This document shows positions 6,806-64,000 of a stretch of DNA of 64,000 nt, one piece after another. The notes beneath the pieces are model-generated. The model worked only from the letters and a program-made list of their open reading frames with translations. It made no database searches and was not told the origin of the DNA. Position 1 is the stretch's first letter; each line of letters begins with the position of its first letter. The translations under genes and the position numbers were made by a program. Origin of the DNA: Nitrospirota bacterium (GTDB lineage: Bacteria > JACPQY01); contig JACPQY010000063.1 in NCBI GenBank assembly GCA_016190245.1, positions 9,123-73,122 of the forward strand, read 5' to 3'.

Positions 6806-8998
6806 GTGGCGGGGGGGCCGGCATTTCGCTATTCTTTCCCGGTCGTGATCAGCCGTACGGCCGTCGTCTTCCTCGGCTTCTTGATCCATTTCCAATGGCT
6901 CTCGCTCTACCATGCGGTGCAGACAAAGTTTCCCTTGGACCTCGTGGCGGTTCTCCTGCTCGGCCTCCCGCTCCTTGGCCTTTCCGCGGGGCTTCTGACA
7001 CGTCGCGGGGAGGGCCGCCTCGGGCCGGTCTGGGCGGCCGGCGCCGCTGTCTTCGCATGGAGTCTCTGCTTCTCCCAGGCCCTCAACCTGCACTTTCTCG
7101 TCTCCTCCATCTACTATCCCTACCAGAAACCCGCCGGATATGCCCTCGGTGTCGCGATCTATGTGCTGGCGTGGATCGCCTGCGTCCCCTACTTTGGCGG
7201 CCTCGGAACGGCCTTGAGGACCATGGCCTCGGCTCGCGGGGCCGGGCCCCCGTGGCCCGCGATGGCGCTCGGATTCGCCCTCGCGTACCCCGCCGCTTAC
7301 GCCGCCCGCACGGCGGTCGGTCCCTACCTCGCGCTGCTGCTTGCCTCCGGCATCTCACTTGCATGGCTCGGGCGTGGGGTTCCCCTCCGGGCCGCCGCAC
7401 TCCTCCTGCTGGCCGGGGGATGGTGGGCCTACCACGCGAAGCCCACACAACTCTATCTCTGGCGGGCGAGGACCTACACGGCCTCTGAGGAACGGTGGTC
7501 GCCCTACTATCGCCTGACTCCCGCATTCTTCAACGAGGGGCGCTGCGCGGGGGGCGTCTTCAACCAGTTGATGATCTGGTACTCCTGCTCCGAGTACGAT
7601 CTCTACCCCCGGGAGTCCCGCCTGACCATCGAGGCGATGGGCGCCGGCCGTCGGAAACTCCTCGAACTCGGCAGAACGGACGGCATGACCACGCTCGCCA
7701 CAAGGAACGTCTCGCCTGACGTTCGCTCGGTTACCGTAGAGATAGACCCGCTCGCGGTGCGCCTTTCCCGCACGCTGCTCGGGCCGTTCAACATGAACCT
7801 CTTCCGCACCCAAGGCGCGGACCTGATGGCGGCCGACTGGCGTCACGTCCTCCGGGATGATGGCGAGCGCTACGATTTCATCTATCTTGACGGCCTCGGC
7901 ATCCGCCTGTACACGATCCCGCTGACGATCATCCCGCAGGAGAACTTCCTCTATTCGCGTGAGGCATACTCCGACATCTTCCGCCGCCGCATGGCGCCGG
8001 GCGGTCTTCTCGCGATCAATTGGGGCAGCACGCGCTCCGAGGAGGTCTATCCTCTCGTGGCGAACCTCCCGCCGGAAATCCACGCGAGGGCCTACTGGGG
8101 GACGATGACGACATTCCCCTTCACCGGTCTCCCGCTCTTCTTCGTGATCGCCTCGGAGGACGACACAACGCTGGAGCGCATCGGTCGCGAGTTTCTGGCG
8201 ATGGGAAACCTGCAGGAAGTCCCGTTGCCTCCGGAGCAGGTGGAACAGCATCGGTACACGGACGACCGGCCTCACAACCAAAGGAAACTTCCGCTGATGC
8301 TGCTCGTGCCCACGCTGCCTCTGGCCTTCCTCGTGGCGCTCGCGTTTGCCCGCTGGATGAAGAGAAGCGGTTCGGGCTGGAAGAACCTGTCACCCGGGAT
8401 CTCGGCCGGGTTCCTCAACGGCGTTGCCGAGGCCCTGCTCGTGAGCCGGGCCTCGATCCTGTTTCCGCTCGGCCCAGCTCAGGGGTGGGTGCCTTCGGCG
8501 GTGATGCTTTGGGGAGGTCGCGCTCTCGGCGGGCTGCGCTCTCCCTCAGACCGAGCCTCATGGCTCCCACCGGTGGCCATCTTGGGCTCGTGCCTCGCGG
8601 TGACCGGCACCGTGCCCTATTCCGCCGTCACGGCATCGCTCGCGCTGGCGGGTGTCGCCCTCGGCGCGATGACCTGCCGCGCCCTCCACAACGCAGGAGA
8701 TCACCCCCACCTTCATCCTCCCCCCTCAAGGGGGAGGAATGAGAATATCCCCTCCCCCCTCGCGGGGGAGTCCGCCAGTGGCGGAGAGGGTGGGGGGGAG
8801 GATGGCCACAGGCTCGGGTCGTGGGTGCTTGGCCTTGCGACCGGGATCTATTCTTTCCAGTGGATTCAGTACGCCCTCGGGTTTCGAGGGACGGCAGTGA
8901 TGGTCGGCGTCTTGGGCTTTGTCGTGGCTGGGCGCGCTTCCCTGTTCCCCCTCTCCATAAAAGGCCAGGGTCCTATCCGAAAACGCCGGAGCTCGTAG
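6806..8998 (+). CDS. Membrane-embedded spermidine-synthase-like methyltransferase-fold protein
   Basis: 730 residues from GTG 6806; GTG 6845 is an equally plausible start. Hydrophobic helices flank a soluble centre (about residues 225-480) that resembles the spermidine synthase fold: VTVEIDPLAVRLSRTLL is the acidic cofactor-site strand and YDFIYLDG the following strand. The usual GGGDG loop is not recognisable, so true aminopropyl transfer is doubtful. Fused membrane spermidine synthase-like proteins are common and mostly uncharacterised. Residues about 632-666 are Pro/Gly/Ser-rich and are encoded by a repeat element (8717-8785) lying in frame between membrane helices. The stop codon TAG (8996-8998) is part of the GTAG head of the next repeat element. 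The gene converges on a glycosyltransferase gene. Confidence 0.75.
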   Translation: MAGGPAFRYSFPVVISRTAVVFLGFLIHFQWLSLYHAVQTKFPLDLVAVLLLGLPLLGLSAGLLTRRGEGRLGPVWAAGAAVFAWSLCFSQALNLHFLVSSIYYPYQKPAGYALGVAIYVLAWIACVPYFGGLGTALRTMASARGAGPPWPAMALGFALAYPAAYAARTAVGPYLALLLASGISLAWLGRGVPLRAAALLLLAGGWWAYHAKPTQLYLWRARTYTASEERWSPYYRLTPAFFNEGRCAGGVFNQLMIWYSCSEYDLYPRESRLTIEAMGAGRRKLLELGRTDGMTTLATRNVSPDVRSVTVEIDPLAVRLSRTLLGPFNMNLFRTQGADLMAADWRHVLRDDGERYDFIYLDGLGIRLYTIPLTIIPQENFLYSREAYSDIFRRRMAPGGLLAINWGSTRSEEVYPLVANLPPEIHARAYWGTMTTFPFTGLPLFFVIASEDDTTLERIGREFLAMGNLQEVPLPPEQVEQHRYTDDRPHNQRKLPLMLLVPTLPLAFLVALAFARWMKRSGSGWKNLSPGISAGFLNGVAEALLVSRASILFPLGPAQGWVPSAVMLWGGRALGGLRSPSDRASWLPPVAILGSCLAVTGTVPYSAVTASLALAGVALGAMTCRALHNAGDHPHLHPPPSRGRNENIPSPLAGESASGGEGGGEDGHRLGSWVLGLATGIYSFQWIQYALGFRGTAVMVGVLGFVVAGRASLFPLSIKGQGPIRKRRSS
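8717..8785. repeat. Palindromic repeat cluster inside a coding region
   Basis: Three hairpin-forming palindromes follow each other inside the spermidine-synthase-like gene: CCTCCCCC-ctcaa-GGGGGAGG (8717-8737), a similar C-run/G-run stem near 8752-8770, and TCCGCCA-g-TGGCGGA (8771-8785). The last resembles the GTCCGCC/GGCGGAC palindrome found at five other places in the window. The reading frame stays open and encodes a low-complexity Pro/Gly/Ser segment. Confidence 0.75.
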
Positions 8999-9086
8999 GG
9001 GAGCATCTTCAGATGCTCCCTCCTCATGGGCGGGTCTGCCTGCCCGCCGTCCGCCGCGGCGGACAGGCGGGAAGACCCGCACCTAC
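8995..9086. repeat. GTAG-headed inverted REP pair (BIME-like) joining two convergent genes
   Basis: The plus-strand unit begins GTAG (8995) followed by stem GGGAGCATC, loop TTCA, stem GATGCTCCC. The minus-strand unit begins GTAG (9086 to 9083) followed by stem GCGGG, loop TCTT, stem CCCGC. Between them lies the palindrome GTCCGCCGCGGCGGAC (9049-9064). The two GTAG heads form the outer borders, and both TAG triplets are used as stop codons: 8996-8998 for the plus-strand gene and 9085-9083 for the minus-strand gene. GTAG plus hairpin is the known signature of REP elements moved by RAYT transposases; no such transposase is in the window. Confidence 0.85.
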
Positions 9087-11128
9087 ATCCCGCCCCACCT
9101 CAGCCTGATCCAATCCACCGGCAAAGACCTCTGCTGCTTGCGCAGCAACTCGGCCGTGCCCAGAGAGGCGCGAAGCTCGATCCTGTGGAAGCCGACGCTC
9201 ACGTCCAACACGATCTCACGAACCCTCTCGCCGCTGCCTTCCTCCCATTGCGGGAGCTCCGCGTTCTGCCAAGGCAACTCGTCCAATCTCCAGTCTACCT
9301 CGATAGGCGTCTGCCGTTCTTCGTCCACGTATCGCGTTCCCCTGAACACGTCCTCCCACAAGGACCAGGGGTGTTCGTGCTCGAGAGACAGCCGGTAAGG
9401 ACCGGTTCGCGTAACGTGAATGTACGAACGAAACACCCCCTCGGGTCCGAGGGCCACGGCGTTGCGCCACCCGTTCTCGGGGAGCACAACGAGTCCCTTC
9501 TTGCGGCGCTCGAATCGCGCCACGACGACCTCCTCGCCCACGCCGAACGTCCTCACCTCATCCGCCTGGGCCAGCCAGTCGTTCAGGACGCCCTCCCACG
9601 GCCCTTTCCATCGCGGCGAACCGTCCATTCCACCTTCGACGACCAGCCACCGCGACCCCTCGCCGGCGAGCTCTTCCTCGAGGTCCGACGAGGAGAGTAT
9701 CGGCCGCGTCTCGCGCCTCAGGAACGGCGCTCCGCAGGGCAAGACGAACCGGTCCATGAACTCAAGATGACCTTCCGGGGAAAAGACATGGTAGCGGCAC
9801 GTCGCCTCACGGTCTGGGCCCGGGAGGAGGGACACATCCGCCTCCGCGCCCACGCGGCCCGAGCGCGCCAGGTAGTACGACATCGGGTAGGCCGTGAGTC
9901 CCGTGAAGATCACACCGTCGCCTGGCTCCCATCGCGCGGCGAGCCACTGCGCCGCCCCGCGCCAATCGTCCGTCGGCACGAGGTAGTATCTCCCGAGCGC
10001 GACGAGTTGACCTGTGACGAAGAGCACGATGAGGCCGGCCTCGAACGCTCGTCCGAACCTCGCCCACGCCCGCGGCGCGCCAACGTCAGTCTTCCTCCCC
10101 CGTGCGATGCCCACCGCCATCACAAGCGCCATCGCAGGCAGGAGGTACACCACCATGCGCGACTCGAACATCCACCCCTTCCGAGAGATCCACGCGAGGA
10201 GGGGCAGGATGGAGAGAAGCGTGAGTACCACGTAGCCGGCGAACCGGGGCGAGGACGTCCACAAACGCCGAAGGCCGCGGACGATCCAGAGCGCGGCGAC
10301 GAGGTCCGACGCCGCCACGACAGCCGCTGTCAGCGGGCCGGCCCACCCCTCCTGCCATGGGACCGTCCATTTCTTCAAGAACAGGAAACCGACCAGGAGC
10401 GGCAGCGGGGGCTCGACGCGATAGAAGGTCTGGGAGGAATCGAAGAGGCGTCCCACGAGATGGGCGTAGGGCGCCAGACTTGCGGCGGCAAGCCCGAGGC
10501 TCAGGGCAACGCCCTGCGCGCGTCCGGCCGACCGGATCCCGGGAGCGTTCGTGAACCGCCAGGCCGCGAAAACAAGGATCTGAGCAAGGAGAAAGTAGAG
10601 GCCCAGAAAATGGAGGTGGACAAGCAGGAGGTTGCAGAGGGCGTACCTGAGCCAACCCCGGAATCGTTCCTTTTCCAGAATCCGCCAGAAATCCACCCAC
10701 ACCACGAGCCCCACGAACATCACCAAGGCATACGCCCGCGCCTCTTGGGCGTGGCGAACCCAGAAGACGGACGTCATGAGGAACAAGGCAGCCCATCGCG
10801 AGGCCATCGGGAGGGCGCCCCGCCCGGCCAGCCGCGCCAGATACGCGCAAGCGGCGACGCCCGCCGCCACCGAAGGCAGGCGCATCCAGGCCTCGTCCGT
10901 ACCGGCCCGCGCCCACACTCGCAGAAACAGAAGGTAGAGCGGCGGGCCCGATATCTCGCGCCCCACCAGCGCCTCTCGGAAGTCGGCCCACGGTTGGACC
11001 GCCCAGAACAGGCTCTCGATCTCGTCCAGCCAGTAGGACCGCGTCCACAATCCGACGCATGCCAGGGCCATCGCCGCGGCGGCGGCCAGGCACACACGCC
11101 ACCCACCACCGTCTCGTCCCGCTTCCAT
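9083..11128 (-). CDS. GT39/ArnT-like membrane glycosyltransferase
   Basis: 681 residues from ATG 11128; the frame continues upstream to 11197 but without hydrophobic or family sequence. The N-terminus has the features of dolichyl/undecaprenyl-phosphate-sugar glycosyltransferases of the GT39 (PMT-like) superfamily: a first helix ending in SYWLDEIESL with the acidic pair, and RHAQEARAYAL after the third helix. About ten membrane helices follow, then a C-terminal extracytoplasmic beta-rich region of about 200 residues. Such enzymes transfer sugars from a lipid carrier to lipid A, proteins or glycans on the outer face of the inner membrane. The substrate cannot be read from sequence. Its TAG stop lies inside a repeat head at 9083-9086. 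Confidence 0.8.
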   Translation of the reverse strand: MEAGRDGGGWRVCLAAAAAMALACVGLWTRSYWLDEIESLFWAVQPWADFREALVGREISGPPLYLLFLRVWARAGTDEAWMRLPSVAAGVAACAYLARLAGRGALPMASRWAALFLMTSVFWVRHAQEARAYALVMFVGLVVWVDFWRILEKERFRGWLRYALCNLLLVHLHFLGLYFLLAQILVFAAWRFTNAPGIRSAGRAQGVALSLGLAAASLAPYAHLVGRLFDSSQTFYRVEPPLPLLVGFLFLKKWTVPWQEGWAGPLTAAVVAASDLVAALWIVRGLRRLWTSSPRFAGYVVLTLLSILPLLAWISRKGWMFESRMVVYLLPAMALVMAVGIARGRKTDVGAPRAWARFGRAFEAGLIVLFVTGQLVALGRYYLVPTDDWRGAAQWLAARWEPGDGVIFTGLTAYPMSYYLARSGRVGAEADVSLLPGPDREATCRYHVFSPEGHLEFMDRFVLPCGAPFLRRETRPILSSSDLEEELAGEGSRWLVVEGGMDGSPRWKGPWEGVLNDWLAQADEVRTFGVGEEVVVARFERRKKGLVVLPENGWRNAVALGPEGVFRSYIHVTRTGPYRLSLEHEHPWSLWEDVFRGTRYVDEERQTPIEVDWRLDELPWQNAELPQWEEGSGERVREIVLDVSVGFHRIELRASLGTAELLRKQQRSLPVDWIRLRWGGM

Positions 11129-11291
11129 GTGCCCGACAATACACGAAAACCGGGACTTGGGCGGGTCAAAACACTCGTTCCTTCCTAACTTCGGCAACCT
11201 TTCGCTGAACCTCTTTGGAACAAAACGTGCCTCTCAGGAGTCTAATTAAGTATAGATGTTTTTTCGCGTCAGCGAGGATGGCAGTCGGCAT

Positions 11292-11297
11292 AGGAGG
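11292..11297 (+). promoter_or_regulatory. Strong ribosome binding site deciding the start of the SBBP/DUF11 gene
   Basis: AGGAGG lies seven bases before ATG 11305 and marks that ATG as the start, rather than the upstream in-frame codons at 11215 or 11278. The 11129-11304 intergenic region is AT-rich for this genome, with a possible -10 (TATAGA, 11251-11256), but I see no convincing -35. Confidence 0.8.
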
Positions 11298-11304
11298 TCC
11301 CAAT

Positions 11305-16932: not shown

Positions 16933-16960
16933 CCCCCTTTGTTCATGAACTCTGCGAGGC

Positions 16961-17027
16961 CATGTTCCATGCGATCCATCCTGGATCGCAACCTATCATG
17001 GCCCCATCCCGTCCTTGGCAAGGGGCC
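16961..17027 (-). repeat. 70-base interspersed repeat, copy 1
   Basis: On the minus strand this reads GCCCCTTGCCAAGGACGG, ATGGGGCCATGATAGG, TTGCGATCCAGGATGG. Two further copies lie at 58257-58312 and 63683-63755 on the plus strand. The conserved core is CCCCTTGCC, then ATGGGGCCATGATA, then GTTG. This copy lacks the GTAGCCGC head seen on the other two. Confidence 0.8.
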
Positions 17028-17118
17028 AAGGAGGCAGGGGCCAGCCCCGCCCCACGCTTCCTGCGCGGGGGCGGCCCGTTGGGGCGAATAATTCATGCAC
17101 TTCATCTCCCTCCCCTGC

Positions 17119-17997: not shown

Positions 17998-18068
17998 GCT
18001 ATCCCCAATGCTCGGGAGCCGCGAGTCCGCCCGCCGGCCCTTGATCCGTCGGCAAGCATCCTGTCCGC

Positions 18069-18147
18069 GTAGGGGCGGCGTCCACGCCGCCCGAAATGCG
18101 CGATGACCACGGCGATCTCAGGCGGGCGTCCAGGAGGACGCCCCTAC
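18069..18147. repeat. GTAG-headed inverted REP pair (BIME-like)
   Basis: Plus-strand unit: GTAG (18069), stem GGGCGGCG, loop TCCA, stem CGCCGCCC. Minus-strand unit: GTAG (18147 to 18144), stem GGGCGTCC, loop TCCT, stem GGACGCCC. Both stems are perfect. The pair occupies the middle of the gap 17998-18268 between the Pro-rich protein and the DUF2723 gene; nothing else is evident there. Confidence 0.85.
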
Positions 18148-18268
18148 GTGCTCCACCCGTTGGGTGAGTGCTCCTCCCTCGTCCTGTGAACGTTGTCAAC
18201 GGATTACGGCCGGCGGAGAGCCCGGATCCGCTTGCGATCGCGCCCACCTGCTGCCTGCTTCCCATGAC

Positions 18269-20260: not shown

Positions 20261-20297
20261 ACCCCCCAAGCGGGCACGGCCTAACCGGCCCTCGCCT

Positions 20298-20864: not shown

Positions 20865-20869
20865 GGGTC

Positions 20870-26955: not shown

Positions 26956-27011
26956 GTAGGGGCGCATTCTTCTGCGTCCGGAAACACGGACCGATCAGAA
27001 TCGGTCCCTAC
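26956..27011. repeat. GTAG-headed inverted REP pair (BIME-like), copy a
   Basis: Plus unit: GTAG (26956), stem GGGCGCA, loop TTCTTC, arm TGCGTCC with one G-T pair. Minus unit: GTAG (27011 to 27008), stem GGACCGAT, loop TCTG, stem ATCGGTCC. The pair lies upstream of the prepilin gene in the roughly 290-base gap 26895-27186, which otherwise holds only a second copy. Confidence 0.85.
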
Positions 27012-27036: not shown

Positions 27037-27112
27037 GTAGGGGCGCATTCTCATGCGTCCGGAAAGCCGGACCGAGGGCGTGAAACGCCCCGCGGTCGGA
27101 ATCGGTGCCTAT
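27037..27112. repeat. GTAG-headed inverted REP pair (BIME-like), copy b
   Basis: The plus unit GTAG (27037) with stem GGGCGCAT, loop TCTC, arm ATGCGTCC is nearly identical to the copy at 26956. The minus unit is longer and decayed: GGACCGA pairs with TCGG across an internal hairpin GGGCGT-gaa-ACGCCC, and the end reads CTAT instead of CTAC. Confidence 0.75.
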
Positions 27113-30175: not shown

Positions 30176-30606
30176 CCTGACCCTCGCCCACTCTTTCGGC
30201 GCCCGGCCTCGATTGGAGGCGGGTGTGGGCGCGGCCCGTGCCGCAGGCGGCCGTCACTCAGGCTGTGCGGGCCGCCTGCGGGCGGCAGGAGGCCCCTGCG
30301 CGGAGGAGTGAGTCTCGCGACCAAGGTGGTCCGGCGATTGACAACCCCTACACCAATGTGTCAAGGTGGGGAGGCTGTGGGGAGAAGTAGACAACTTGCA
30401 TCATGGGGGGGTGCCTTCCCCCGTAGCGCCCGATTTTGCATCGGGCGAAAACCGTCCGGCGTAAAGCCGGACGCTGCGAAGATATTCACCGGATCGGTGC
30501 CCCCCCCCGCGAGGCGCAACACCTGTTGTCTACGGATTAAGGGCTGTGGGGAGAAGGGTCGGAAGGATGGTCGCCTGGTATGACTAGCACCGGGGGAGGT
30601 GATCGA
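30176..30606. other. 431-base region between the two pilA-like genes
   Basis: No gene is evident. The region contains a GTAG repeat pair (30423-30478), a GC-rich palindromic stretch near 30245-30295 (GCCGCCTGCGGGCGGC), and a direct repeat GGCTGTGGGGAGAAG at about 30374 and 30542. A TTGACA at 30338 lacks a fitting -10. I found no TGGCAC-N5-TTGC sigma54 element. Confidence 0.6.
30423..30478. repeat. GTAG-headed inverted REP pair, partly decayed
   Basis: Plus unit: GTAG (30423), stem CGCCCGAT, loop TTTGC, stem ATCGGGCG. Minus unit: stem GTCCGGC, loop TTTAC, stem GCCGGAC, with head GCAG where GTAG is expected. Confidence 0.8.
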
Positions 30607-34345: not shown

Positions 34346-35973
34346 GACATCGCGTGTGGGCGCTCCGTGCCGGAGGCGGCCTCACCCCCCTCCCCTGCCC
34401 CGATGAGCATTCCCCTCAGACGAGAGCCTTCGATGGCGTCCGCGCGAAGGCGAACCACGGTTCCCCGCGGTCGCCCATCGGCCCTAAACACCATTCGGAC
34501 GTAGTCGCGGGTGGTGGCGGTCCACTCGCCGGGGTCCCGGTGCGACGGGGCCTCGGCGATCGCCTCGAAAACGCCGCCGACATGCCCCGCCAAGAACTTG
34601 TCCCTCCGGGTTCGGGAAAGATCGAGAAGCCTTCCCGCGCGGCGCCGCTTCGCCGCCTCGCCCACGTGGTCCGGCAGGCGTGAGGCGCGCGTGTGCGGGC
34701 GCGGCGAATACGGAAACACGTGAAGATAGGTGAAGGGGAAAAACTCGATGAAGCGCAGCGTCCGCTCGAACGCGTCCTCGGTCTCGCCGGGGAAACCCAC
34801 GAGGACGTCGGCTCCGAGGTTGAGGCTCGGCATGCGCTCGCACAGGGCGGAAATCCGGGCCCGCATCGCCTCCACGGTGTAGGGTCGGCGCATGATGCGC
34901 AACACCTCGGGATCGGCGCTCTGAACGGCGACGTGGAAGTGGGGGCAGATTTTCTTTGACCCGGCCACCACCTGAAGGAGATCGTCGGTCAAGGCGCTCG
35001 GATCGAGCGAGCTGAGACGAAGCCGGACTCCGTCGTCCTCGGCACAGAGGGTCTCGAGCAGGCGCGAGAACGGGACCGGCGGATCGAGATCCCTGCCGTA
35101 GGCGGCCAGATGGACGCCGGAGAGGACAACTTCCCGCGCGCCGCCGCGAACAAGTGCCCGGTAGGCGGCCACGGCCTCGGCCGGGGGCAGGCTGCGGGAG
35201 CGGCCGCGCGTGAAGGGGATCACGCAGAAGGAGCAGCATTGATCGCAGCCGTCGTGAACCTTGAGAACGGGCCGGGCGCGATCTTGAACGTCAGTGGGCG
35301 CGGCCCCGTATGCAGCCCCGAATCCCATTCGGGGCCATGCACGGGGCGCGGCCGTGGAAGCGGCTGGGGACGCACCCTGAAGGGTGCGGCTACGGGCTGA
35401 GAGGATCGGACCGTGGTAGCCGCAGGCTTCCCCCCTGTGCCGCGTCGGCGGGCAGGCAGCCTGCGTCTCGAGTGCGCCCGGACGGGCGAGCAGACCGGAC
35501 AGGACTTCCGCCAGGCGACCGGTCTCCCTCGCGCCCACCACCAGATCCGCCCCCTCCGCCCGGAGCTGTTTCGCCGCCATCTGTGCATAGCACCCCGTGG
35601 CCAGAACGAACGCCGAGGGGTTCCACGATTTCACGCGGCGGATCCAGGCACGCGCATCGAAGTCCGCTTGCGCGGTGACCGTGCAGGTATTCACGACGTA
35701 CACGTCGGCCTCGGTGCGGCCCTGCATCGGCCGGTAGGCAAGGCCGGCCTCCTCGAGTTGGCGGCGCACGGCCTGTCCGTCGGCATAGTTGACGCGGCAG
35801 CCAAGGGAGATGAGAGAGAAGGTGCCCGCGAGCCGGCACCCGCGCAAGTCCTGTGCTGCATCGAGCTTGCTTCTCCGCCGGCTGGTCCGCCACGGCGGAC
35901 TGGCGGATCGCCATGACACCCCTTCTGTCATCGCGAGGGCCAAGGCGTCCGGTGGTGTCATCCTCGGATCCAT
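34342..35973 (-). CDS. mtaB: tRNA threonylcarbamoyladenosine methylthiotransferase MtaB
   Basis: About 543 residues, roughly 100 longer than usual. The start is ATG 35973 or ATG 35961; the latter overlaps the mnmA stop as ATGA. The UPF0004 domain (FSLISLGCRVNYADGQAV, NTCTVTAQADFDAR, ATGCYAQ) is followed by the radical-SAM motif CDQCCSFC and a C-terminal TRAM-like domain. It adds the methylthio group of ms2t6A37 in tRNA. Two segments are foreign-looking. The N-terminal 50 residues include WRSASPPWRTS, encoded by a palindromic repeat. A stretch of about 65 residues before the radical-SAM motif is encoded by REP-like hairpins at 35310-35460. Catalytic motifs are intact. Confidence 0.9.
   Translation of the reverse strand: MDPRMTPPDALALAMTEGVSWRSASPPWRTSRRRSKLDAAQDLRGCRLAGTFSLISLGCRVNYADGQAVRRQLEEAGLAYRPMQGRTEADVYVVNTCTVTAQADFDARAWIRRVKSWNPSAFVLATGCYAQMAAKQLRAEGADLVVGARETGRLAEVLSGLLARPGALETQAACPPTRHRGEACGYHGPILSARSRTLQGASPAASTAAPRAWPRMGFGAAYGAAPTDVQDRARPVLKVHDGCDQCCSFCVIPFTRGRSRSLPPAEAVAAYRALVRGGAREVVLSGVHLAAYGRDLDPPVPFSRLLETLCAEDDGVRLRLSSLDPSALTDDLLQVVAGSKKICPHFHVAVQSADPEVLRIMRRPYTVEAMRARISALCERMPSLNLGADVLVGFPGETEDAFERTLRFIEFFPFTYLHVFPYSPRPHTRASRLPDHVGEAAKRRRAGRLLDLSRTRRDKFLAGHVGGVFEAIAEAPSHRDPGEWTATTRDYVRMVFRADGRPRGTVVRLRADAIEGSRLRGMLIGAGEGGEAASGTERPHAMS
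35310..35460. repeat. REP-like hairpin cluster in frame inside mtaB
   Basis: The cluster contains CCCCGAAT-ccc-ATTCGGGG near 35315-35335. A minus-strand unit has GTAG (35393 to 35390), then CCG and stem CACCC-TTCA-GGGTG. A plus-strand unit has GTAG (35416) with CCGCAGGCTTC. Heads face each other here, unlike the other pairs. The segment keeps mtaB open and falls between the UPF0004 and radical-SAM domains. Confidence 0.75.
35885..35900. repeat. 16-base palindrome GTCCGCC-AC-GGCGGAC inside the mtaB N-terminus
   Basis: Same family as the palindromes at 9049, 33674, 46911 and 48309. It encodes part of the atypical N-terminal extension of MtaB. Confidence 0.75.
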
Positions 35974-45532: not shown

Positions 45533-46797
45533 CTCCACACATGGCCTACGCGGGCAACGATCTGGGTCTCGAAGGCGTTCGACTGTCCGATCTGGCCGCT
45601 CGGTACGGCACACCCCTCTACGTGTATTCGCATTCCGAGATGGAGGATCGCTACCGCGCCTTCAAGCTCCCCGATCGCGAAAACCGCCTCACCGTCTGCT
45701 TCTCGGTGAAAGCGAACCCGAATCCGGCGATTCTCAGAACCTTCTTCGATCTGGGCGCGGGGTTCGATGTGACCTCCGCCGGAGAGTTGTTTCTCGCGGG
45801 GCGCGCGGCTCAGGCGGCGGGGAACTCTCGAACGCCCGCGATCGTCTTCTCGGGAGCGGGGAAGTCCTCGGCCGAAATCGAGATGGCGCTCAAAGACGGG
45901 ATCACGATGCTCAACCTCGAATCCGGGGCCGAAATGGAGCGCGTGGCGGGGATCGCCGCACGCCTCGGCGTCCGGGCCCCCGTCTCATTCCGCGTCAACC
46001 CCGACGTCGACCCCAAAACCCATCCGTACATCGCCACCGGCCTGAGAAAACACAAGTTCGGAGTTCCTTGGAAAGAGTGCCTCGCCCTCTACGAGGCCGC
46101 CCGGCAACGGCCGGAGCTGGAGGTGGTCGGCGTCTCGTGCCACATCGGATCTCAGATGCTCTCGATCAGACCTGTCACGGATGCGGTGCGCCGGATCCTC
46201 CGTCTCGCGGACGACCTGCGCCGCTCGGGTTTCACACTGCGCTACATCGACGTCGGCGGCGGCCTCGGCATCCGCTACCATCGCGAGCATCCGCCCTCGC
46301 CCGAGCAGTATGCCGCCCGGCTGCTCGGTCTCACGCGGCGATCCAGCCTCCACGTCATAGCCGAACCGGGCCGCAGCCTTGTTGGGAACGCGGGCCTCCT
46401 CCTCACGCGCGTGCTGGACCGGAAGACCAACCGTGCCAGGCGGTTCGTCATCGTGGACGCGGCGATGACGGATCTCATCAGGCCCACCCTCTATGGCGCT
46501 TACCACGAAATCCTTCCCGTTCGCCTGGCTGCTCGCGGTCGGGAACGCGTGGATGTGGTGGGCCCGGTCTGCGAATCCGGAGACTATCTCGCGCTCAACC
46601 GCCAACTGCCCCGCGCGAACGAAGGGGATCTCCTCGCCGTCCTTTCCTCGGGGGCCTACGGCTACGCGATGGCGTCCAACTACAACGGCCGACTCCGCCC
46701 CGCGGAGGTCATGGTCAACCGTGGCGAAGTGGAGTTGATCCGCCCCCGCGAGCGCCTCGAAGACCTCCTGCCGTTCCCCCCTGATCCCGCCCGGTAG
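45529..46797 (+). CDS. lysA: Diaminopimelate decarboxylase
   Basis: 422 residues, fold-type III PLP enzyme. The PLP lysine is in FSVKANPNPAIL. VDVGGGLGIRYH stands for the phosphate-binding glycine loop (IDVGGGLGI in sequence), HIGSQ and EPGRSLVGNAG are present, and the catalytic cysteine lies in GPVCESGDYLA. It makes L-lysine from meso-diaminopimelate. The ATG overlaps the preceding lipoprotein stop (ATGA). Its own stop TAG is part of a GTAG repeat head at 46794-46797. Confidence 0.95.
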   Translation: MTPHMAYAGNDLGLEGVRLSDLAARYGTPLYVYSHSEMEDRYRAFKLPDRENRLTVCFSVKANPNPAILRTFFDLGAGFDVTSAGELFLAGRAAQAAGNSRTPAIVFSGAGKSSAEIEMALKDGITMLNLESGAEMERVAGIAARLGVRAPVSFRVNPDVDPKTHPYIATGLRKHKFGVPWKECLALYEAARQRPELEVVGVSCHIGSQMLSIRPVTDAVRRILRLADDLRRSGFTLRYIDVGGGLGIRYHREHPPSPEQYAARLLGLTRRSSLHVIAEPGRSLVGNAGLLLTRVLDRKTNRARRFVIVDAAMTDLIRPTLYGAYHEILPVRLAARGRERVDVVGPVCESGDYLALNRQLPRANEGDLLAVLSSGAYGYAMASNYNGRLRPAEVMVNRGEVELIRPRERLEDLLPFPPDPAR

Positions 46798-46942
46798 CCG
46801 CAGGCTTCAGCCGGAGGCGGCCCGACTCGGCATCGCGGATCGTGATCCCGCCCGGTAGCCGCAGGCTTCAGCCTGCGCCCCTGACGCGGGCTGCCTGCCC
46901 ACCGAAGTCCGTCCGCCACGGCGGACAGGCGGGAGGCCCGCG
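46794..46942. repeat. Compound GTAG repeat, copy 1, one side of truD
   Basis: Starts GTAGCCGC at 46794 (its TAG ends lysA). It contains a second GTAGCCGC at 46855 with stem GCAGGC-TTCA-GCCTGC, then the palindrome GTCCGCCACGGCGGAC (46911-46926), and ends GGCCCGCG. It is nearly identical to 48191-48346 in the same orientation; the two flank truD as direct repeats. Confidence 0.88.
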
Positions 46943-46945
46943 CCA

Positions 46946-48148: not shown

Positions 48149-48190
48149 TCGGTGCCTGGCGCTTTCAAGACTCGGACCTCACGCCTGCTC

Positions 48191-48346
48191 GGTGGCCGCA
48201 GGCTTCAGTCGGAGGCGGCCCGACTCGGCATCGCGGATCGTGATCCCGCCCGGTAGCCGCAGGCTTCAGCCTGCGCCCCTGACGCGGGCTGCCTGCCCGC
48301 CGAAGTCCGTCCGCCGTGGCGGACTGGACAGGCGGGAAGCCCGCGG
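48191..48346. repeat. Compound GTAG repeat, copy 2, other side of truD
   Basis: Begins GTGGCCGC (a decayed GTAGCCGC head). An intact GTAGCCGC at 48253 has stem GCAGGC-TTCA-GCCTGC. GTCCGCCGTGGCGGAC is at 48309-48324. It is followed by GCGGCCAC, a decayed inverse head. Direct repeat of 46794-46942, in the same order with a few substitutions and one short insertion. Confidence 0.88.
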
Positions 48347-48496
48347 CCACCACAGGCTTCATGCGGTTCGCCCCGTCTGCGAAGGGTGGTTCATCGGCGG
48401 CGCATCATCCCGCCTTCGCGGTCCGAAAGGAAGTGCCAACCCCCCCGAGAAGCGGGGACAAAATAAGTCCCCAAACCACACGTCAAGGGCGTCGTT

Positions 48497-48512: not shown

Positions 48513-48567
48513 TACTTGTTTGCGCACCTGGACTACTCTCAGTTAGACTATCCGGCGGTTGATCGCG

Positions 48568-54072: not shown

Positions 54073-54185
54073 TAGCGCGCGCTGTCGACAAGCGACCGGC
54101 CACCCGCGCTTCGGGGTCAGGTCTTGCGATGCAACATGCGCTCGATCGCAGGACATGCGCCCGGAATGCCGGACAGGGAGAGGCT

Positions 54186-57065: not shown

Positions 57066-57102
57066 TGCAACGCGAAAGCCCGCACGCTATCATGCGCCGA
57101 CC

Positions 57103-58185: not shown

Positions 58186-58246
58186 CGGAGCCGGGGCGCG
58201 TCTTGCGCACCCGCCAAAGCGGCAAGGTTGTTTCGACCCAATTCGG

Positions 58247-58312
58247 GTAGCCGCAGCCCCTTGCCCAGGAGGGTATGGGGCCATGATAAGTTGTGGCCCA
58301 GGATGGGCTTGG
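58247..58312 (+). repeat. 70-base interspersed repeat, copy 2, with GTAGCCGC head
   Basis: GTAGCCGCAG, then CCCCTTGCCCAGGAGG, ATGGGGCCATGATAAG, TTGTGGCCCAGGATGG. It matches the copies at 16961-17027 (minus) and 63677-63755 (plus). Confidence 0.85.
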
Positions 58313-58324
58313 CCTCCCTCTTTC

Positions 58325-58352
58325 GCTGATACCTGACCGCTGACCGCTCAAC
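58325..58352. repeat. Heptanucleotide array overlapping the 3' end of the LOG gene
   Basis: GCTGATA, CCTGACC, GCTGACC, GCTCAAC. The words are of the same type as the array at 5009-5129. The TGA stop of the minus-strand LOG gene (58350-58348) lies inside it. Confidence 0.75.
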
Positions 58353-59373
58353 AGCGATTGATCTCGTCCACCAGGACCCGCACCGGCCCCATCCCGCCCT
58401 CGTAGGCAAAGGCCAGGCGAAGCAGGCCCGAAAGCTCCGGCTCGTCCTTTTCCTCGGCCAACGGACCCAACTGCTCGGGCGGGCCGTCCCGGAAAAGCTG
58501 CGGGAACCTCGACGGTAGCGTCCGCACCGTCTCGTCAGGAAGGGGCCTCAGGTACCTCAGGATGAGCCGCTGGCCCACGTACCGCATCGAGTGGAAGTTC
58601 CCATAGAAGGACGTGATCTCCTTCACCGCCTCGTCCACCGATCTCACGAGCTTGAAGAGATGGAGATCCTCGGCGGCGATCATGCCGCGCGAGAGCACCT
58701 CCGCTCGGAGCCACTCGACCAAGCGAGACCAATACGTCCCGCCCGGCGTGTCCATGAGCACGAGCGGCATGACCGGCGAGCGCCCCGTCTGCAGCAGCGT
58801 GAACAGCTCGAATCCCTCGTCGAGCGTTCCCATCCCTCCCGGAAAGAGCGCCATCGCGCTCGACTCGCGCACGAAGAAAAGCTTGCGCACAAAAAAATAC
58901 TTGAAATGGATAAGCTTGGGATCCTCCTCGATGAAGCGGTTGGGCTCGTCCTCCATCGGGAGCATGATCTTGAGACCGAACGATTGATCCCGCCCCGCCC
59001 CTTCGTGCCCGGCCGCCATGATGCCCTGGCCGGCTCCCGTGATGACCATCCAGCCGCGCCGCGCCATCGCCCGCCCGAGGTCCCGGGCCAGCCCGTAGAT
59101 GGGCTCGGAGGGATCGGTTCGGGCCGATCCCCAGATCGAGACCTTCCGCTGCGTTCGGTACGGGGCAAACACGCGGAACGCGTAGCGCATCTCCTTGATC
59201 GCCGCGGTGGCGATCTTGAAGTCCAGCACGTCGTGGGTCTCTTCCATCATCTTCAGGGCGGCGACGACCATCTGAAAGACGTAGTCGTCCGTCGCGTTCG
59301 GAGAGCTCGATCGCGCGACATGCGCCGCTTGAATGAGCCCCCGGATCATTTCGTTGAGCTCGGGCGCGGACAT
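58348..59373 (-). CDS. LOG-family protein (cytokinin-riboside phosphoribohydrolase-like)
   Basis: 341 residues from ATG 59373; the frame extends to 59550 in low-complexity Arg-rich sequence. Family marks: VSIWGSARTDPSEPIY, VITGAGQGIMAAGHEGAG and the PGGMGTLDEGFE motif that binds the nucleotide monophosphate. LOG proteins cleave nucleotide 5'-monophosphates to base and ribose phosphate; bacterial members have uncertain physiological roles. It is longer than simple LOGs by an N-terminal helical part and a C-terminal extension, as in the larger TIGR00730-type subgroup. Confidence 0.85.
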   Translation of the reverse strand: MSAPELNEMIRGLIQAAHVARSSSPNATDDYVFQMVVAALKMMEETHDVLDFKIATAAIKEMRYAFRVFAPYRTQRKVSIWGSARTDPSEPIYGLARDLGRAMARRGWMVITGAGQGIMAAGHEGAGRDQSFGLKIMLPMEDEPNRFIEEDPKLIHFKYFFVRKLFFVRESSAMALFPGGMGTLDEGFELFTLLQTGRSPVMPLVLMDTPGGTYWSRLVEWLRAEVLSRGMIAAEDLHLFKLVRSVDEAVKEITSFYGNFHSMRYVGQRLILRYLRPLPDETVRTLPSRFPQLFRDGPPEQLGPLAEEKDEPELSGLLRLAFAYEGGMGPVRVLVDEINRC

Positions 59374-59568
59374 CTGGAAATGCCCCGCATGGGTACCGCC
59401 CGCGTCTCGTCGCGCGGGACCCCTGCCGCGAGCTCGTGGAAGGCTCCTATTCGGGGAACGCGCGAGTCGCATCAGAACCGGGTTTGTCGATGTCGTGGAA
59501 GACGCATGGAACCAGCGGAACTTCCAGTGTACGCCGCCGGGCCCGAACAATCCAGCGCGCCGCGCCGC

Positions 59569-60858
59569 TCACCCCCGCAACACGGGCCGCCCGGTCTTTC
59601 CCAGGGCCTCGATGAGATCCGCGGCCCGACCGGGGGTGGCCGAGGGGTCCAATCGCGCGCCAACGTCCCTCGCCCGCTCCCGATAGCTCGGCTCCCCGAG
59701 CACCCGCCGCACCCAACGCCGCAACCGCCCCCGCGTGAGCAGGTGGGGCCTGAGCATGACCCCGGCGCCCAACTCCTGCACGCGGCGCGCGTTGTCCGGC
59801 TGATCCCAGTTGAAGGGGACGATCACCATGGGCACGCCGTGGCACAGCCCTCCCATGCACGTTGAGAACCCGCCGTGATGCACCATCACGCCAACGCGGC
59901 TCAGGAAGAAACTGTGCGGCACAAAACGCTCCAAAATGACATGCGGCGGCGGAGTCCCGAGCCGCCCCAGATCCACGGCGTTGCCCGTCGTGACGATCAA
60001 CTGGACGTCTTCTCCGGCAAGGGCCTCCATCGCGAAATTGAAAAACTCGGTCCGGAGCGGTCCCACCGCGGTGCCTTGCGTGACATAAACGACAGGCCTG
60101 CCGTCCAGTGTCTCCAGCCAGGAGGGAGGGACCTGGTCGATTCTGTGATCCCACTGGCTGACGCCCACAAAATGAAACTGAGGGGGAAAATCCGCTCGCG
60201 GATACTCGAACTCGCGCGTGGAAAAAGCGAGGTACAGGTAGGGGGAATGGGTGCTCGAGAAAAAACCGTCTCGGATGGAGGGCAGGCCGATCCGCCGCCG
60301 AACCTCGTTGAAAATCGGATCGTACTGCCGCGCGAAGATCTTCCCTCCCCACCAGATGAACCGGTTCAGCCAGAACTGCCACGCGGTCGTGGGAGGACCC
60401 AAGCCCAGGCCCGGCGGGCACGAGCCCTTCCCCTCGACGAGCGGGAGAAAGAGTCCTGACGTGGCCCAGGGGATGCCGAGCCGCTCCGCCGCCATCGCGC
60501 TGCCGAACGTGATGGTGTCCACGATCACCACGTCCGGCCGGTATTCGGAAATGATCCGCAGCGACTGCTCGGCGATCTCCCCGACGAGCGGTCCCACGAC
60601 GCGCTTCATCAGATAGTGGGTCTGGAACATCCCCCGCTTGGTGCGAAGGCCCGGATGCAGCGAAGGCCAATCGCGATACCGAACCCGCGGGCCTGCGAGG
60701 AACCCGTCCATGCCAAGGCGCGCGACGGTTTCGAGCACGCCCACGTCGGCCTCGCTCAGGAACGCCACGTCGTGTCCGCGGCGGCGCATCTCCAAGGCCA
60801 CCGGCACCACAGGAAAGAAATGGCCCGCAGGCGCCGGCACGCAGAATAGAACCCGCAT
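59569..60858 (-). CDS. GT1-family (MGT/UGT-like) glycosyltransferase
   Basis: 429 residues, GT-B fold. The N-terminal domain begins RVLFCVPAPAGHFFPVVPVA. The donor-binding signature is HHGGFSTCMGGLCHGVPMV followed by VPFNWDQPDNARRVQELGAG, as in macrolide and sterol glucosyltransferases. It is cytosolic and transfers a sugar from an NDP-sugar to a small hydrophobic acceptor; the acceptor is unknown. No polyketide or lipid gene is adjacent. It is divergent from the DUF4416 gene. The gap before the LOG gene (59374-59568) holds GC-rich palindromes but no gene. Confidence 0.85.
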   Translation of the reverse strand: MRVLFCVPAPAGHFFPVVPVALEMRRRGHDVAFLSEADVGVLETVARLGMDGFLAGPRVRYRDWPSLHPGLRTKRGMFQTHYLMKRVVGPLVGEIAEQSLRIISEYRPDVVIVDTITFGSAMAAERLGIPWATSGLFLPLVEGKGSCPPGLGLGPPTTAWQFWLNRFIWWGGKIFARQYDPIFNEVRRRIGLPSIRDGFFSSTHSPYLYLAFSTREFEYPRADFPPQFHFVGVSQWDHRIDQVPPSWLETLDGRPVVYVTQGTAVGPLRTEFFNFAMEALAGEDVQLIVTTGNAVDLGRLGTPPPHVILERFVPHSFFLSRVGVMVHHGGFSTCMGGLCHGVPMVIVPFNWDQPDNARRVQELGAGVMLRPHLLTRGRLRRWVRRVLGEPSYRERARDVGARLDPSATPGRAADLIEALGKTGRPVLRG

Positions 60859-60960
60859 CGAGCCATTCTACTCGACCCTGCCCGGTTCGCCACCCCGGGG
60901 CGCCTGCAACAGCACCGCTTTGTGGAGCCGCGTGCGTCGGGATACACTGGCGCCCAGACC

Positions 60961-61500
60961 GTGGCACGCGACCATCCGGCCCCCCCAGAACCCCTCGCAC
61001 GCCCCTTCATCAGCGTCTTTGCCGCGTCCGATCCCCCCATCCACACCGCGCTCGAACGCGCGGAGGCGGCCCTCGGACCGGCGCTTTTCGTGAGCCAACT
61101 TGTCCCCTTCGGCCCCACACGATACTACGAGGAGGAATTCGGCCCCCGCATCGTTCGGCGATTCGCGCTGTTCGAGGGCTGGATCCCCGAAACCGACCTC
61201 GTCCGGATCAAGGCTGCGCTCATGCAGATCGAGGACGGGACACGGGAAGCTAACCGCCGTCGTGTCAACCTCGATGCCGGCCTCCTCACTCTCTCCCGGC
61301 TCATCCTCGCCTCCCACAAGCCGGCACCCCACCGCCTCCTCCTCTCCTCCGGCGTGTGGGCGGAACTCACGCTCGTGTACGAGAGCGGCGAATACCGGCC
61401 ACTCCGGTGGACCTATCCCGATTACGCCTCCCAGACCGTTCGGGATCTCCTCCGCGCGCTTCGCTCGGAACACCTTTCGCACCGGCACTCCACAAGATAG
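60961..61500 (+). CDS. DUF4416-family protein
   Basis: 179 residues from GTG 60961; GTG 60922 is also possible. It matches the DUF4416 pattern: FGPTRYYEEEFGPRIVRRF, NRRRVNLDAGLLTLSRLILA, ASHKPAPHRLLLSSGVWAE and WTYPDYAS. The function is unknown. The gene stops 10 bases before the peptide deformylase start and probably opens the def-fmt-rpe operon, which may hint at a link with translation or sugar-phosphate metabolism. Confidence 0.85.
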   Translation: MARDHPAPPEPLARPFISVFAASDPPIHTALERAEAALGPALFVSQLVPFGPTRYYEEEFGPRIVRRFALFEGWIPETDLVRIKAALMQIEDGTREANRRRVNLDAGLLTLSRLILASHKPAPHRLLLSSGVWAELTLVYESGEYRPLRWTYPDYASQTVRDLLRALRSEHLSHRHSTR

Positions 61501-61510
61501 AATAGAGATC

Positions 61511-62065
61511 GTGAAGGATGTGGTGTACTTCCCGGACCCGCGCCTCCAGAAAGAGTCCGCTCCGATCGAGCGCTTCGATGCGGAGATCAAGGCACTGGCC
61601 CGCGAGTTACTCGATACGATGTACGCCCACTCGGGCGTCGGACTGGCCGCCCCCCAGATCGGAGTACACCGCCGAATGATCGTCATCGACACCGGATGGC
61701 CCCAGGGGGAGGAGCGGCCGAGGGTCGTCGCAAATCCCGTGATTGCGCAGAAACGCGGGTCCATCTCCTACGAGGAAGGCTGCCTCAGTCTCCCGGGCTA
61801 CACGGCAAAAGTCACCCGCGCGCGCTGGATCAAGATGCGCGGCTTCGATGCCGAAGGCGCACCCCTCGAACTCGAAGCCGAAGAGCTGGACGCCATCGCC
61901 CTCCAACACGAGACGGATCACCTCGACGGCGTCCTCTTCATCGATCGCGTCGCCCGGAGCGTGCGCGACCTGTACCGCAAGCGTCTCAAGAAATGGCAGT
62001 CCGAGTTTTACGGGACGTCTGCCCAGCGGCAGAAACTGTTGGACGGGCAGGGGGCCATGTTATGA
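61511..62065 (+). CDS. def: Peptide deformylase
   Basis: 184 residues from GTG 61511 (the frame opens far upstream inside DUF4416). All three PDF motifs are present: GVGLAAPQIG, EGCLSLPG and QHETDHLDG, giving the metal ligands cysteine and two histidines and the catalytic glutamate. It removes the formyl group from nascent proteins. Stop and fmt start overlap as ATGA. Confidence 0.96.
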   Translation: MKDVVYFPDPRLQKESAPIERFDAEIKALARELLDTMYAHSGVGLAAPQIGVHRRMIVIDTGWPQGEERPRVVANPVIAQKRGSISYEEGCLSLPGYTAKVTRARWIKMRGFDAEGAPLELEAEELDAIALQHETDHLDGVLFIDRVARSVRDLYRKRLKKWQSEFYGTSAQRQKLLDGQGAML

Positions 62066-63015
62066 CACACGATGGCCCGCCGCTCCGCGTCGTCTTCGCG
62101 GGAAGCAGTACGTTCTCGGTCCCTGTCCTCGAGGCACTGCTGAAGGGACCGGACTCGGTGGCTGCCGTGGTGACCACTCCGGATCGCCCGAGGGGCCGCG
62201 GCCTGCACCCGGAACCCTCCGCCGTGAAATCCGCCGCCGAACGGTACGGGATCGCCGTATTCACCCCGGAGCGATTGTCCGACCCGGCCTTCCTCGAAGC
62301 CCTCAGCACGCTCAGCCCCGCGGTGGGCGTGGTGGTCGCCTACGGCAAGATCATTCCTTCCCCCGCCCTCACCCTGCCGGCCCTCGGTTGGGTCAACATC
62401 CACGCTTCTCTCCTTCCTCTTTATCGAGGCGCGGCGCCCATTCAGTGGGCCCTCATCAACGGAGAGCGGGAAACCGGCGTGACCCTTTTTCTGCTCGACC
62501 GCGAGGTGGACCACGGGCCCGTGCTCGCCAAGACGCGCGTGCCGATCCGGCCCGGGGAGACCGCCGCCACACTGCACGACCGCCTCGCCGAGGTGGGTGC
62601 CGAGCTTCTGAGCGAAACGCTCCCGCGGTGGGCCGACGGAAAGATCCGCCCGCGGCCGCAGGACCACGCCCGCGCCACCTATGCCCCGAAAATCACGAAA
62701 GAGGACGGCCGGATCGCGTGGAAGGACCCCGCTGATGTCATCGAGAGGAAAATCCGCGCTCTCCACCCTTGGCCGGGGGCCTACGCGCGGCTGGACTCCC
62801 TCAACCTCCGGATTCTCGCCGGCACGACACGCGCCGACTCGACCGGCGCCGCCCCACCCGGTTCGATCACGCGCACGGACCCCCACGGAATCGAGGTCGC
62901 TTGCGGGGAGGGCCGGCTGGTCATCACCCGCGTGCAGCCCGAGAGCCGCCGCCCGATGAGCGCCGGCGACTTCCTCCACGGCCACGCGATCGCCCCGGGA
63001 ACGTTCTTCGCATGA
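62062..63015 (+). CDS. fmt: Methionyl-tRNA formyltransferase
   Basis: 317 residues from ATG 62062. VVFAGSSTFSVPVLEALL opens the N-terminal domain; NIHASLLPLYRGAAPIQWAL contains the folate-site signature with the catalytic His and the following GAAPI; GVTLFLLDREVDHGPVL completes it. The C-terminal OB domain binds the tRNA. Paired with def in the formylation cycle. Its stop overlaps the rpe start (ATGA). Confidence 0.96.
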   Translation: MTHDGPPLRVVFAGSSTFSVPVLEALLKGPDSVAAVVTTPDRPRGRGLHPEPSAVKSAAERYGIAVFTPERLSDPAFLEALSTLSPAVGVVVAYGKIIPSPALTLPALGWVNIHASLLPLYRGAAPIQWALINGERETGVTLFLLDREVDHGPVLAKTRVPIRPGETAATLHDRLAEVGAELLSETLPRWADGKIRPRPQDHARATYAPKITKEDGRIAWKDPADVIERKIRALHPWPGAYARLDSLNLRILAGTTRADSTGAAPPGSITRTDPHGIEVACGEGRLVITRVQPESRRPMSAGDFLHGHAIAPGTFFA

Positions 63016-63680
63016 ATCGTCCCGGGAAAATCGCCCCGTCCATCGCGGCGGGGGACTACCTCCGAATGGGCGATGAGCTGCGCGCCGTCACGGAAGCGGG
63101 AGCCGACTACATCCACGTGGACGTGATGGACGGCCACTTCGTGCCCAATCTCACTTTCGGCCCCGAGGTCATTTCGTACATCAAGAAAGGGACGCCCCTG
63201 CCCCTCGACGTTCATCTCATGATCGAAAACGCCGAAGACACCTTCGCGGACTACATCAGCGCCGGCGCTTCCATCGTCACAGTCCACATCGAGGCCGTCC
63301 GCCATCTCCACCGGCTGATCCACGAGATGAAGAGGCGGAACGTCAAAGTCGGCGTGGCGATCAACCCCTCGACGCCCGTGGAGACCCTCGCGGAAATCCT
63401 CCCGGACCTCGACCTCGTGAACGTGATGAGCGTCAACCCGGGCTTCTACGGTCAGGCCTTCATCCCGGGCACGCTCGATAAGGTCGCGCGACTCCGGCGC
63501 CTGGCTGCCGGGCGTGGCGAGGCCCTGGAGATCGAGGTGGATGGCGGAATCAAACTCGACAACATCGCCCCGGTGGCGGCGGCGGGGGCCGATGTCTTCG
63601 TCTCGGGCTCGGGCGTGTTCAAGAACCCGCCCTACGCGGCCACGATCCGCAAGATGCGCGACGCCCTCCGACCGAGGTAG
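63012..63680 (+). CDS. rpe: Ribulose-phosphate 3-epimerase
   Basis: 222 residues from ATG 63012. TIM-barrel with metal ligands and catalytic residues in HVDVMDGHFVPNLTFGP, LDVHLMIENAED, MSVNPGFYGQAF and EVDGGIKLDN. It interconverts ribulose-5-phosphate and xylulose-5-phosphate. The stop TAG (63678-63680) is part of the GTAG head of the repeat that follows. Confidence 0.96.
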   Translation: MNRPGKIAPSIAAGDYLRMGDELRAVTEAGADYIHVDVMDGHFVPNLTFGPEVISYIKKGTPLPLDVHLMIENAEDTFADYISAGASIVTVHIEAVRHLHRLIHEMKRRNVKVGVAINPSTPVETLAEILPDLDLVNVMSVNPGFYGQAFIPGTLDKVARLRRLAAGRGEALEIEVDGGIKLDNIAPVAAAGADVFVSGSGVFKNPPYAATIRKMRDALRPR

Positions 63681-63755
63681 CCGCACCCCCTTGCCCAGGA
63701 TGGCATGGGGCCATGATAGGTTGCGGCCCAGGAAGGGCCGCATGGAACATGGCCT
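63677..63755 (+). repeat. 70-base interspersed repeat, copy 3, whose GTAG head ends rpe
   Basis: GTAGCCGCAC, then CCCCTTGCCCAGGATGG, ATGGGGCCATGATAGG, TTGCGGCCCAGGAAGG, GCCGCATGGAACATGG. This is the fullest copy; its tail CATGGAACATGG is also found in reverse at 16961-16972. Downstream to 63830 there is a GCAGGC-tcaaa-GCCTGC hairpin and no gene. Confidence 0.88.
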
Positions 63756-63832
63756 TCACGGGTGCGCCCCGCAGGCTCAAAGCCTGCTGTGCCCCGTTCC
63801 ACGGGTGCGCCTACCTCGCATTCTCGGTCCGG

Positions 63833-64000
63833 GTAGCCGCGGGCCTTAGCCCGCTGAAAGAAAGCTCCTCTGCGCTCACATTCAGGGCACTCGCATTCTC
63901 GGTCCCGGTAGCCGCGGGCTTTAACCCGCTGAAAGGAAGCTCCTCTGCGCTCACATTCAGGGCACTCGCATTCTCGGTCCCGGTAGCCGCGGGCTTTAAC
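63833..64000 (+). repeat. 75-base tandem repeat with GTAG-headed hairpin, running past the window end
   Basis: Units start GTAGCCGCGGGC at 63833, 63908 and 63983, exactly 75 bases apart. Each has stem GCGGGC, loop CTTA or TTTA, and arm GCCCGC or ACCCGC. The rest of the unit (AAGCTCCTCTGCGCTCACAT and on) is repeated too, with very few differences. It therefore has no spacers and is not a CRISPR array. The 320 bases after rpe hold no gene. Confidence 0.9.

Follow-up and report, generated by a model that had tools for sequence, protein, structure and literature searches.

We report that a 64,000-nucleotide stretch of a Nitrospirota bacterium genome (contig JACPQY010000063.1, positions 9,123 to 73,122; hereafter the window, to which all coordinates without a prefix refer) carries hairpins headed by the tetranucleotide GTAG that probably represent several coexisting families of GTAG-type repetitive extragenic palindromes (REPs). 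We put the probability at roughly 0.85 that these are non-autonomous units which are moved, or once were moved, by Y1 HUH enzymes of the kind known as REP-associated tyrosine transposases (RAYTs) or TnpAREP, a reading drawn from sequence comparison. The hairpins themselves are a new occurrence of a known system. Most of the importance of the finding is carried by an apparently undescribed second element, a double-hairpin block of 66-69 bp called element X here, which interrupts some of these REPs and is spread over both the window's own genome (G000) and its sister genome (G001). The latter is the sole genome of the same family in our search set, and the other genomes share only the domain.

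A first-pass annotation of the window had listed 16 GTAG heads, every one of which we recovered at the same position and on the same strand, and had made GTAG enrichment next to hairpins one of the tests of its reading. We scored every position in 446 kb, made up of the window and 382 kb drawn from seven further contigs of its genome. By enrichment directly before perfect hairpins with stems of at least 8 bp, GTAG ranked first among all tetranucleotides: it occurred 14 times where 0.59 occurrences were expected (about 24-fold; Poisson P 4e-15). In the window alone, under a looser hairpin definition, the enrichment was just 2.6-fold and ranked behind TAGG and TAGC, so the larger sample matters.

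The proposed coexistence of subfamilies holds as well: we distinguish at least four families, A to D, of which D is looser than the others, and a minor fifth one, E. Stem sequences do differ completely between families, with compensatory variation within a family. Family A follows the pattern GTAG-GGA[CG]NNAT-TCNN-ATNN[CG]TCC (43 matches genome-wide with at most 2 mismatches) and family B the pattern GTAG-Y-CGCNNNC-TTYA-GNNNGCG (25 matches genome-wide by this one pattern), the reversed pattern giving no match in either case. Family C consists of GTAGGGGAGCATCTTCAGATGCTCCC and its relatives, and families D and E are smaller. Three variable stem positions of family A change together through GC, CG, AT, and TA pairs, with a covariation score of 0.358 compared to 0.113 after shuffling (none of 500 shuffles reached 0.358), and slid controls stayed at or below 0.036. 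In family B, the two sides of the free stem position are complementary in 92% of loci, which come from many phyla, versus 61% when the sides are dealt anew.

Family A was detected in G000 and G001 only (at least 4 copies in the latter), and its pattern had no match in 84,980 species genomes or in viral contigs, collections that may omit close kin of the window's genome. A pattern scan for family B in species genomes returned at least 118 stretches, the matches listed including, by record titles, Planctomycetota, Nitrospirota, Acidobacteriota, Verrucomicrobiota, “Deltaproteobacteria”, Chloroflexota, Armatimonadota, Omnitrophota, and others. A separate repeat, about 200 bp long and bounded by TTCAACGACGCG...CGCGTTGTTGAA, holds a head-to-head dimer of family B and looks like a miniature inverted-repeat transposable element (MITE) with a REP passenger; contigs of G000 break in or near it (L011:1-200, L058:1-200, L059:1-200, and the ends of L060 and L062, on C79, C75, C45, C31, and C22, respectively).

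Within the window, the first-pass view that a stem and a short loop can be read in most units stands for the 10 of 16 that are intact, with stems of 7-9 bp starting 0-1 nt after GTAG and loops of 4-5 nt. These are the family C unit at 8995-9020 (+; GTAGGGGAGCATCTTCAGATGCTCCC, with a perfect 9-bp stem and a TTCA loop), a head-to-head pair of family D at 18069-18092 (+; GTAGGGGCGGCGTCCACGCCGCCC) and 18124-18147 (-), three family A units at 26956-26979 (+), 26988-27011 (-), and 27037-27060 (+), the family E unit at 30423-30447 (+; GTAGCGCCCGATTTTGCATCGGGCG), and three family B units at 35371-35393 (-; GTAGCCGCACCCTTCAGGGTGCG), 46855-46877 (+), and 48253-48275 (+). Both plus-strand family A units have imperfect stems, and the minus-strand unit stands head-to-head with the first of them at a distance of 8 bp; such dimers, with about 8 bp between the units, are common. 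The family E unit has a near-identical counterpart in G001 and, in the window, a minus-strand partner at 30453-30477 with a GCAG head and a perfect 8-bp stem.

The remaining heads are accounted for in other ways. Two units have genuine stems around GC-rich palindromic loops of about 29-33 nt, namely the partner that lies head-to-head with the 8995 unit at 9028-9086 (-; stem GCGGGTCT/AGACCCGC, read directly from the sequence) and the family B unit at 35416-35465 (+). Another family B unit is truncated (46794-46812, +), and a variant of this family has a shortened stem (63833-63854, +). The units at 58247 and 63677 start like family B and then run into CCTTGCCCAGGATGGCATGGGGCCATGATA..., which we identified as element X. 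The first-pass annotation had described these two and the 35416 unit as heads with only part of a hairpin, a description that has to be replaced by REPs interrupted by a mobile element in the first two cases and by a real stem with a long palindromic loop in the third. At three places (8995, 46794, and 63677), the TAG within GTAG serves as stop codon for an upstream open frame, a use of REPs that was known before (PMC3733652).

Two side observations concern what else these hairpins may hold. Further GC-rich palindromes (CCCGCCTGTCC...GGCGGGCAGG), placed at TT^CA, occupy the loops of REPs in the window (9028-9086, 35416-35465, and 48253-48350) and are possibly a second class of loop passenger. 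In addition, the partner of the family A unit at 27037 is seemingly split by GGGCGTGAAACGCCCCGCGG (27061-27110), and a similar block follows a family A unit in L256.

No RAYT gene lies in the window, as the first-pass annotation had stated. The search that it suggested, for RAYT genes flanked by matching hairpins, gave a positive result in G000 for family B and in G001 for family C, which supports the RAYT-type reading; the refutation that it had envisaged, with neither a RAYT in the genome or its relatives nor GTAG enrichment, does not apply. The gene at G000:C37:41130-41588, of the E. coli TnpAREP type, has family B units, arranged as dimers, on both sides, and family B units likewise bracket the RAYT at G001:C5:105734-106192. 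RAYTs of 162-171 aa also lie between family B units in two unrelated genomes (L109 and L144), and the L144 protein shares 50% identity with the G000 enzyme and 54% with that of G001. A different RAYT (G001:C5:35044-35478) has GTAGGGG-type units on its two sides, at least 13 in all, of which several are identical to the window's 8995 unit; this candidate enzyme for family C was seen in G001 and not found in G000. Six RAYTs jointly match E. coli TnpAREP (4er8) with an E value of 2e-16, and their alignment displays the HUH motif, the catalytic tyrosine in Y..NP, and the GTAG-contact block WQ..F..H..R (W Q, D/E H, R), the GTAG-contact residues of TnpAREP having been named previously (PMC6006769).

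Two further RAYT loci deserve mention in their own right. The gene at L253:2031-2771 (G001:C7) resembles subclass 2.4 and contains an in-frame double-foot REP, GTAGGGGCGAAAAATATTTCGCCCCTAC, an arrangement known for this subclass (PMC6006769). A family B REP together with its RAYT (a REPtron) is found in a record titled as a Klebsiella pneumoniae metagenome-assembled genome (L109 and L112; CALQJI020000091.1 and CALQJI020000013.1), a kind otherwise seen in unrelated phyla, and the species label of that record looks wrong.

The Pfam model PF01797 yields a different set of candidates, eight Y1 genes in G000 that encode proteins of 277-343 aa with a C-terminal extension, while its cut-off misses the C37 RAYT. 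In their F[QSER]-type motif and their length, most of the eight correspond to subclass 2.1, with one WQG-type protein of 299 aa (C79:86370), and the six that were scanned with the NCBIfam model for REP-associated tyrosine transposases matched it below cut-off. Inverted repeats of the GGGGTCAR or GGGACGTT type lie on both sides of 7 of the 8 genes. Genes with such terminal inverted repeats (motif GGGGWSAS) are known as TIRYTs, and no REPs are reported beside subclass 2.1 (PMC3733652, PMC6006769). Our flank scan found no convincing GTAG-REP beside those Y1 genes whose frames were detected; the frame of the C22 gene (L006) was not, and the closest family B unit located on C22 lies over 7 kb from it. 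Given the inverted repeats, the lack of an adjoining GTAG-REP, and the published TIRYT traits, we rejected these eight genes as REP partners. We also rejected PF01797 by itself as a test for RAYTs: a scan with Pfam alone can overlook the true partner enzyme and at the same time return eight decoys, and without the cross-genome scan for family B the RAYT reading would have seemed refuted.

Element X is present in the window as a complete copy of 66 bp at 63689-63754 (+) that splits the family B REP at 63677-63766 (+) and consists of two abutting hairpins with the dinucleotide GG between them and CC both in the flank and at the end. A 3'-truncated copy (58259-58308) follows the 5' half of another family B unit (58247-58258; together 58247-58308, +), and a third copy of the GG/CC type lies outside any GTAG-REP at 16958-17023 (-). 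Counted by its first hairpin, X occurs about 70 times per genome, and by a core pattern 35 and 44 times, with no match to the reversed patterns. A covariance model detected it in 2 of 290 genomes, G000 and G001, and none was found in plasmids; one match of a viral contig to the X core was dismissed as chance, with the hairpins absent.

The outer ends of the two hairpins coincide exactly with the ends of the insertion. The first hairpin reads CCNTGCC-NNGGAN-GGNANGG, and the second starts directly after it with an outer 7-bp stem (GGCCATG...CATGGCC) around an inner stem with a GGA loop. Both covary, with a score of 0.095 versus 0.061 that no shuffle reached and with lower values in slid controls. 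The stem of a REP that has taken up X is still able to pair around the element. Longer forms have an extra hairpin module within X and make up nested structures of about 130-175 bp (L010:9919-10020, L023:7996(-), and L314:1132).

Among 47 copies with clear ends, CC precedes 46 and forms the last two bases of 45, and the next base is T in 44; 32 of the 47 lie within B-type REPs. X is found inside REPs in both orientations and also within other copies of X. Hairpins of at least 6 bp span the junction at 56% of 32 distinct host sites, compared to 5% of random CC^T sites and 14% of swapped flanks. There are also pairs of occupied and empty sites that share flanks (L257 versus L061 and L263 versus L012, as well as an X within X versus its empty site in L256).

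X also shows a relationship between its interior and its surroundings. The dinucleotide directly after the first hairpin defines subtypes: GG, the majority, goes with CC in the flank and at the end, TG with CA, and TA with TA. By counts curated by eye, in which entries in a common host repeat are not fully independent, the flank is CC for 46 of 47 GG-type copies, TA for 13 of 14 TA-type copies, and CA for 5 of 8 TG-type copies (Fisher P 7e-13 for GG versus TA, 4e-13 for TA versus the rest, and 5e-6 for TG versus the rest). Curation by eye was necessary because automatic end detection with a 5-nt core gave false ends and counted second hairpins of X as first ones. The match of this guide dinucleotide to the end partly follows from the requirement for an outer stem; its match to the flank does not. 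Copies of the TA type lie in REP heads, where the site reads GTA^G, as well as in other places, and the CA type is found in family A as GCA^TTCC or within TA-type copies.

We propose that REPs would be mobilised as single-stranded hairpins by RAYT/TnpAREP-type Y1 HUH enzymes, with the C37 RAYT between its B hairpins as the candidate enzyme for family B and the RAYT present in the sister genome as that for family C. The enzyme would recognise GTAG at the foot of the hairpin, which would guide the choice of the CT cleavage dinucleotide as shown in other TnpAREP systems, and stems would drift through compensatory change, with head and loop retained. A subset of the REPs would in turn be targeted by X, whose dinucleotide would set both the landing site and the end of the element. 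In other systems, TnpAREP has been shown to cut single-stranded REPs at a CT on the 5' or the 3' side of the hairpin; in one of these systems, GTGG redirects cleavage to CC, and the T and G of GTAG select CA (PMC8266576). IS608 inserts 3' of a target that is kept in the left flank, its guide bases choose this target, and the next base matters (PMC5934647). X follows the same arithmetic (GG to CC, TG to CA), from which we infer that it is moved by a Y1 enzyme; on sequence evidence, we give guide-directed, Y1-type single-strand transposition of X about an even chance. Only tentatively, then, do we suggest that X is a new, minimal, gene-free single-strand transposon of 66-69 bp whose central dinucleotide programs its target, with at least three programs (CC, CA, and TA) in one lineage, and which travels as a passenger in REP hairpins and in its own relatives.

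Several observations weigh against these interpretations. The family B RAYT of the window's own genome (C37:41130-41588) has HAH instead of HLH/HMH and an R in place of the conserved G after NP, and judging by these substitutions it may be decaying. For families A, D, and E, neither G000 (84.8% complete) nor G001 (97%) yielded a RAYT, and the remaining RAYT of G001 (C7) has its own GTAGGGGCGAAA-type unit; because the G000 assembly is fragmented (86 contigs) and incomplete, this absence is weak evidence. The proposed link between RAYTs and REPs is one of position and homology. Regarding X, no Y1 gene is consistently flanked by it or by X-like ends, and its flanks, taken alone, read alike for a 2-bp target duplication and a guide-type insertion. 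TIRYT genes were considered as a source of X and rejected: two copies lie 0.75-1.2 kb from a tandem pair in G001, the other Y1 genes have none within 1.5 kb, and X does not resemble the TIRYT inverted repeats.

This ambiguity of the flanks is what gives the competing view of X as a short MITE of a DDE transposase its appeal, since the flank equals the terminal dinucleotide in nearly all copies just as expected if the matching CC, CA, or TA on both sides were a 2-bp target-site duplication. We nonetheless consider it unlikely: plain duplication does not predict an internal dinucleotide that complements the flank in every subtype (GG/CC, TG/CA, and TA/TA), and X is devoid of terminal inverted repeats of the usual kind. 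Another view, improbable to us, treats X as a structured RNA, perhaps a CsrA/RsmA decoy whose loops read ANGGA, that spread as a by-product of copying. The NNGGAN loops on both hairpins and the compensatory stem changes would fit, but the same structure is predicted by a hairpin-seeking DNA element, Rfam has no family above cut-off in the window, and X lies in REPs both ways round and in other copies of itself. We give slightly less credence still to mobilisation by an IS110/IS1111-type recombinase with a bridge RNA, a 2-bp core, and REP targeting. REPs are known targets of insertion sequences (PMC1525189; for IS110, PMC11208160) and G001 has two Transposase_20 genes, but no Transposase_20 match was obtained in G000, where the copy number of X is equal, and the host sites share little past the dinucleotide although bridge RNAs read longer targets. 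As for the GTAG hairpins, their location, for the most part beyond long open frames and in several cases right next to stop codons, would suit terminators or mRNA-stability hairpins that became alike by convergence, but this origin is barely credible in view of the GTAG-specific enrichment, head-to-head dimers, and family-specific loops and is already contradicted by the REPtrons, with a secondary RNA role being possible.

The GTAG hairpins of the window fall in line with previously described GTAG-REPs and REPtrons (Di Nocera et al. 2013, PMC3733652; Nunvar et al. 2010, PMC2817692), with which they share the GTAG head, the 7-9-bp stem with a short loop, head-to-head dimers, a mostly intergenic location, a RAYT between copies, several families per genome, and the use of TAG as a stop codon. 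Unlike those, they occur in a lineage without close relatives in the searched set, with family A in two genomes only, and some of them hold a second mobile element in the hairpin; they extend the known system to a poorly sampled lineage. The partner RAYTs share the WQ..F..H..R block and the [ND]H.H and Y..NP motifs with the TnpAREP subclasses (PMC6006769) and with the enzymes of a recognition study (PMC8266576), and the TTYA loops of families B and C are close to the TTTA loop of REPMb (PMC8266576); in these published systems, GTAG selects CT for cleavage. The eight Y1 genes of G000 resemble TIRYTs of subclass 2.1, with GGGGTCAR repeats close to the published GGGGWSAS, and differ from the RAYTs in not being REP partners.

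For X, the closest comparison is the IS200/IS605 family, with IS608 as the example (PMC5934647): both have hairpins at both ends, carry element-coded bases that complement a short target in the left flank, and show a preference for the next base, and X may, like IS608, insert 3' of that target. Unlike IS608, X has just 66-69 bp and no gene, and its guide dinucleotide lies between two abutting hairpins and serves both ends. Among guide-directed single-strand mobile DNAs, it has the look of a new variant. Target reprogramming through guide bases has been engineered in IS608 and achieved in vitro for one TnpAREP. If our reading is true, X would be a natural series in which a few guide bases and the chosen targets have changed together in one genome, in an element short enough to be synthesised as an oligonucleotide.

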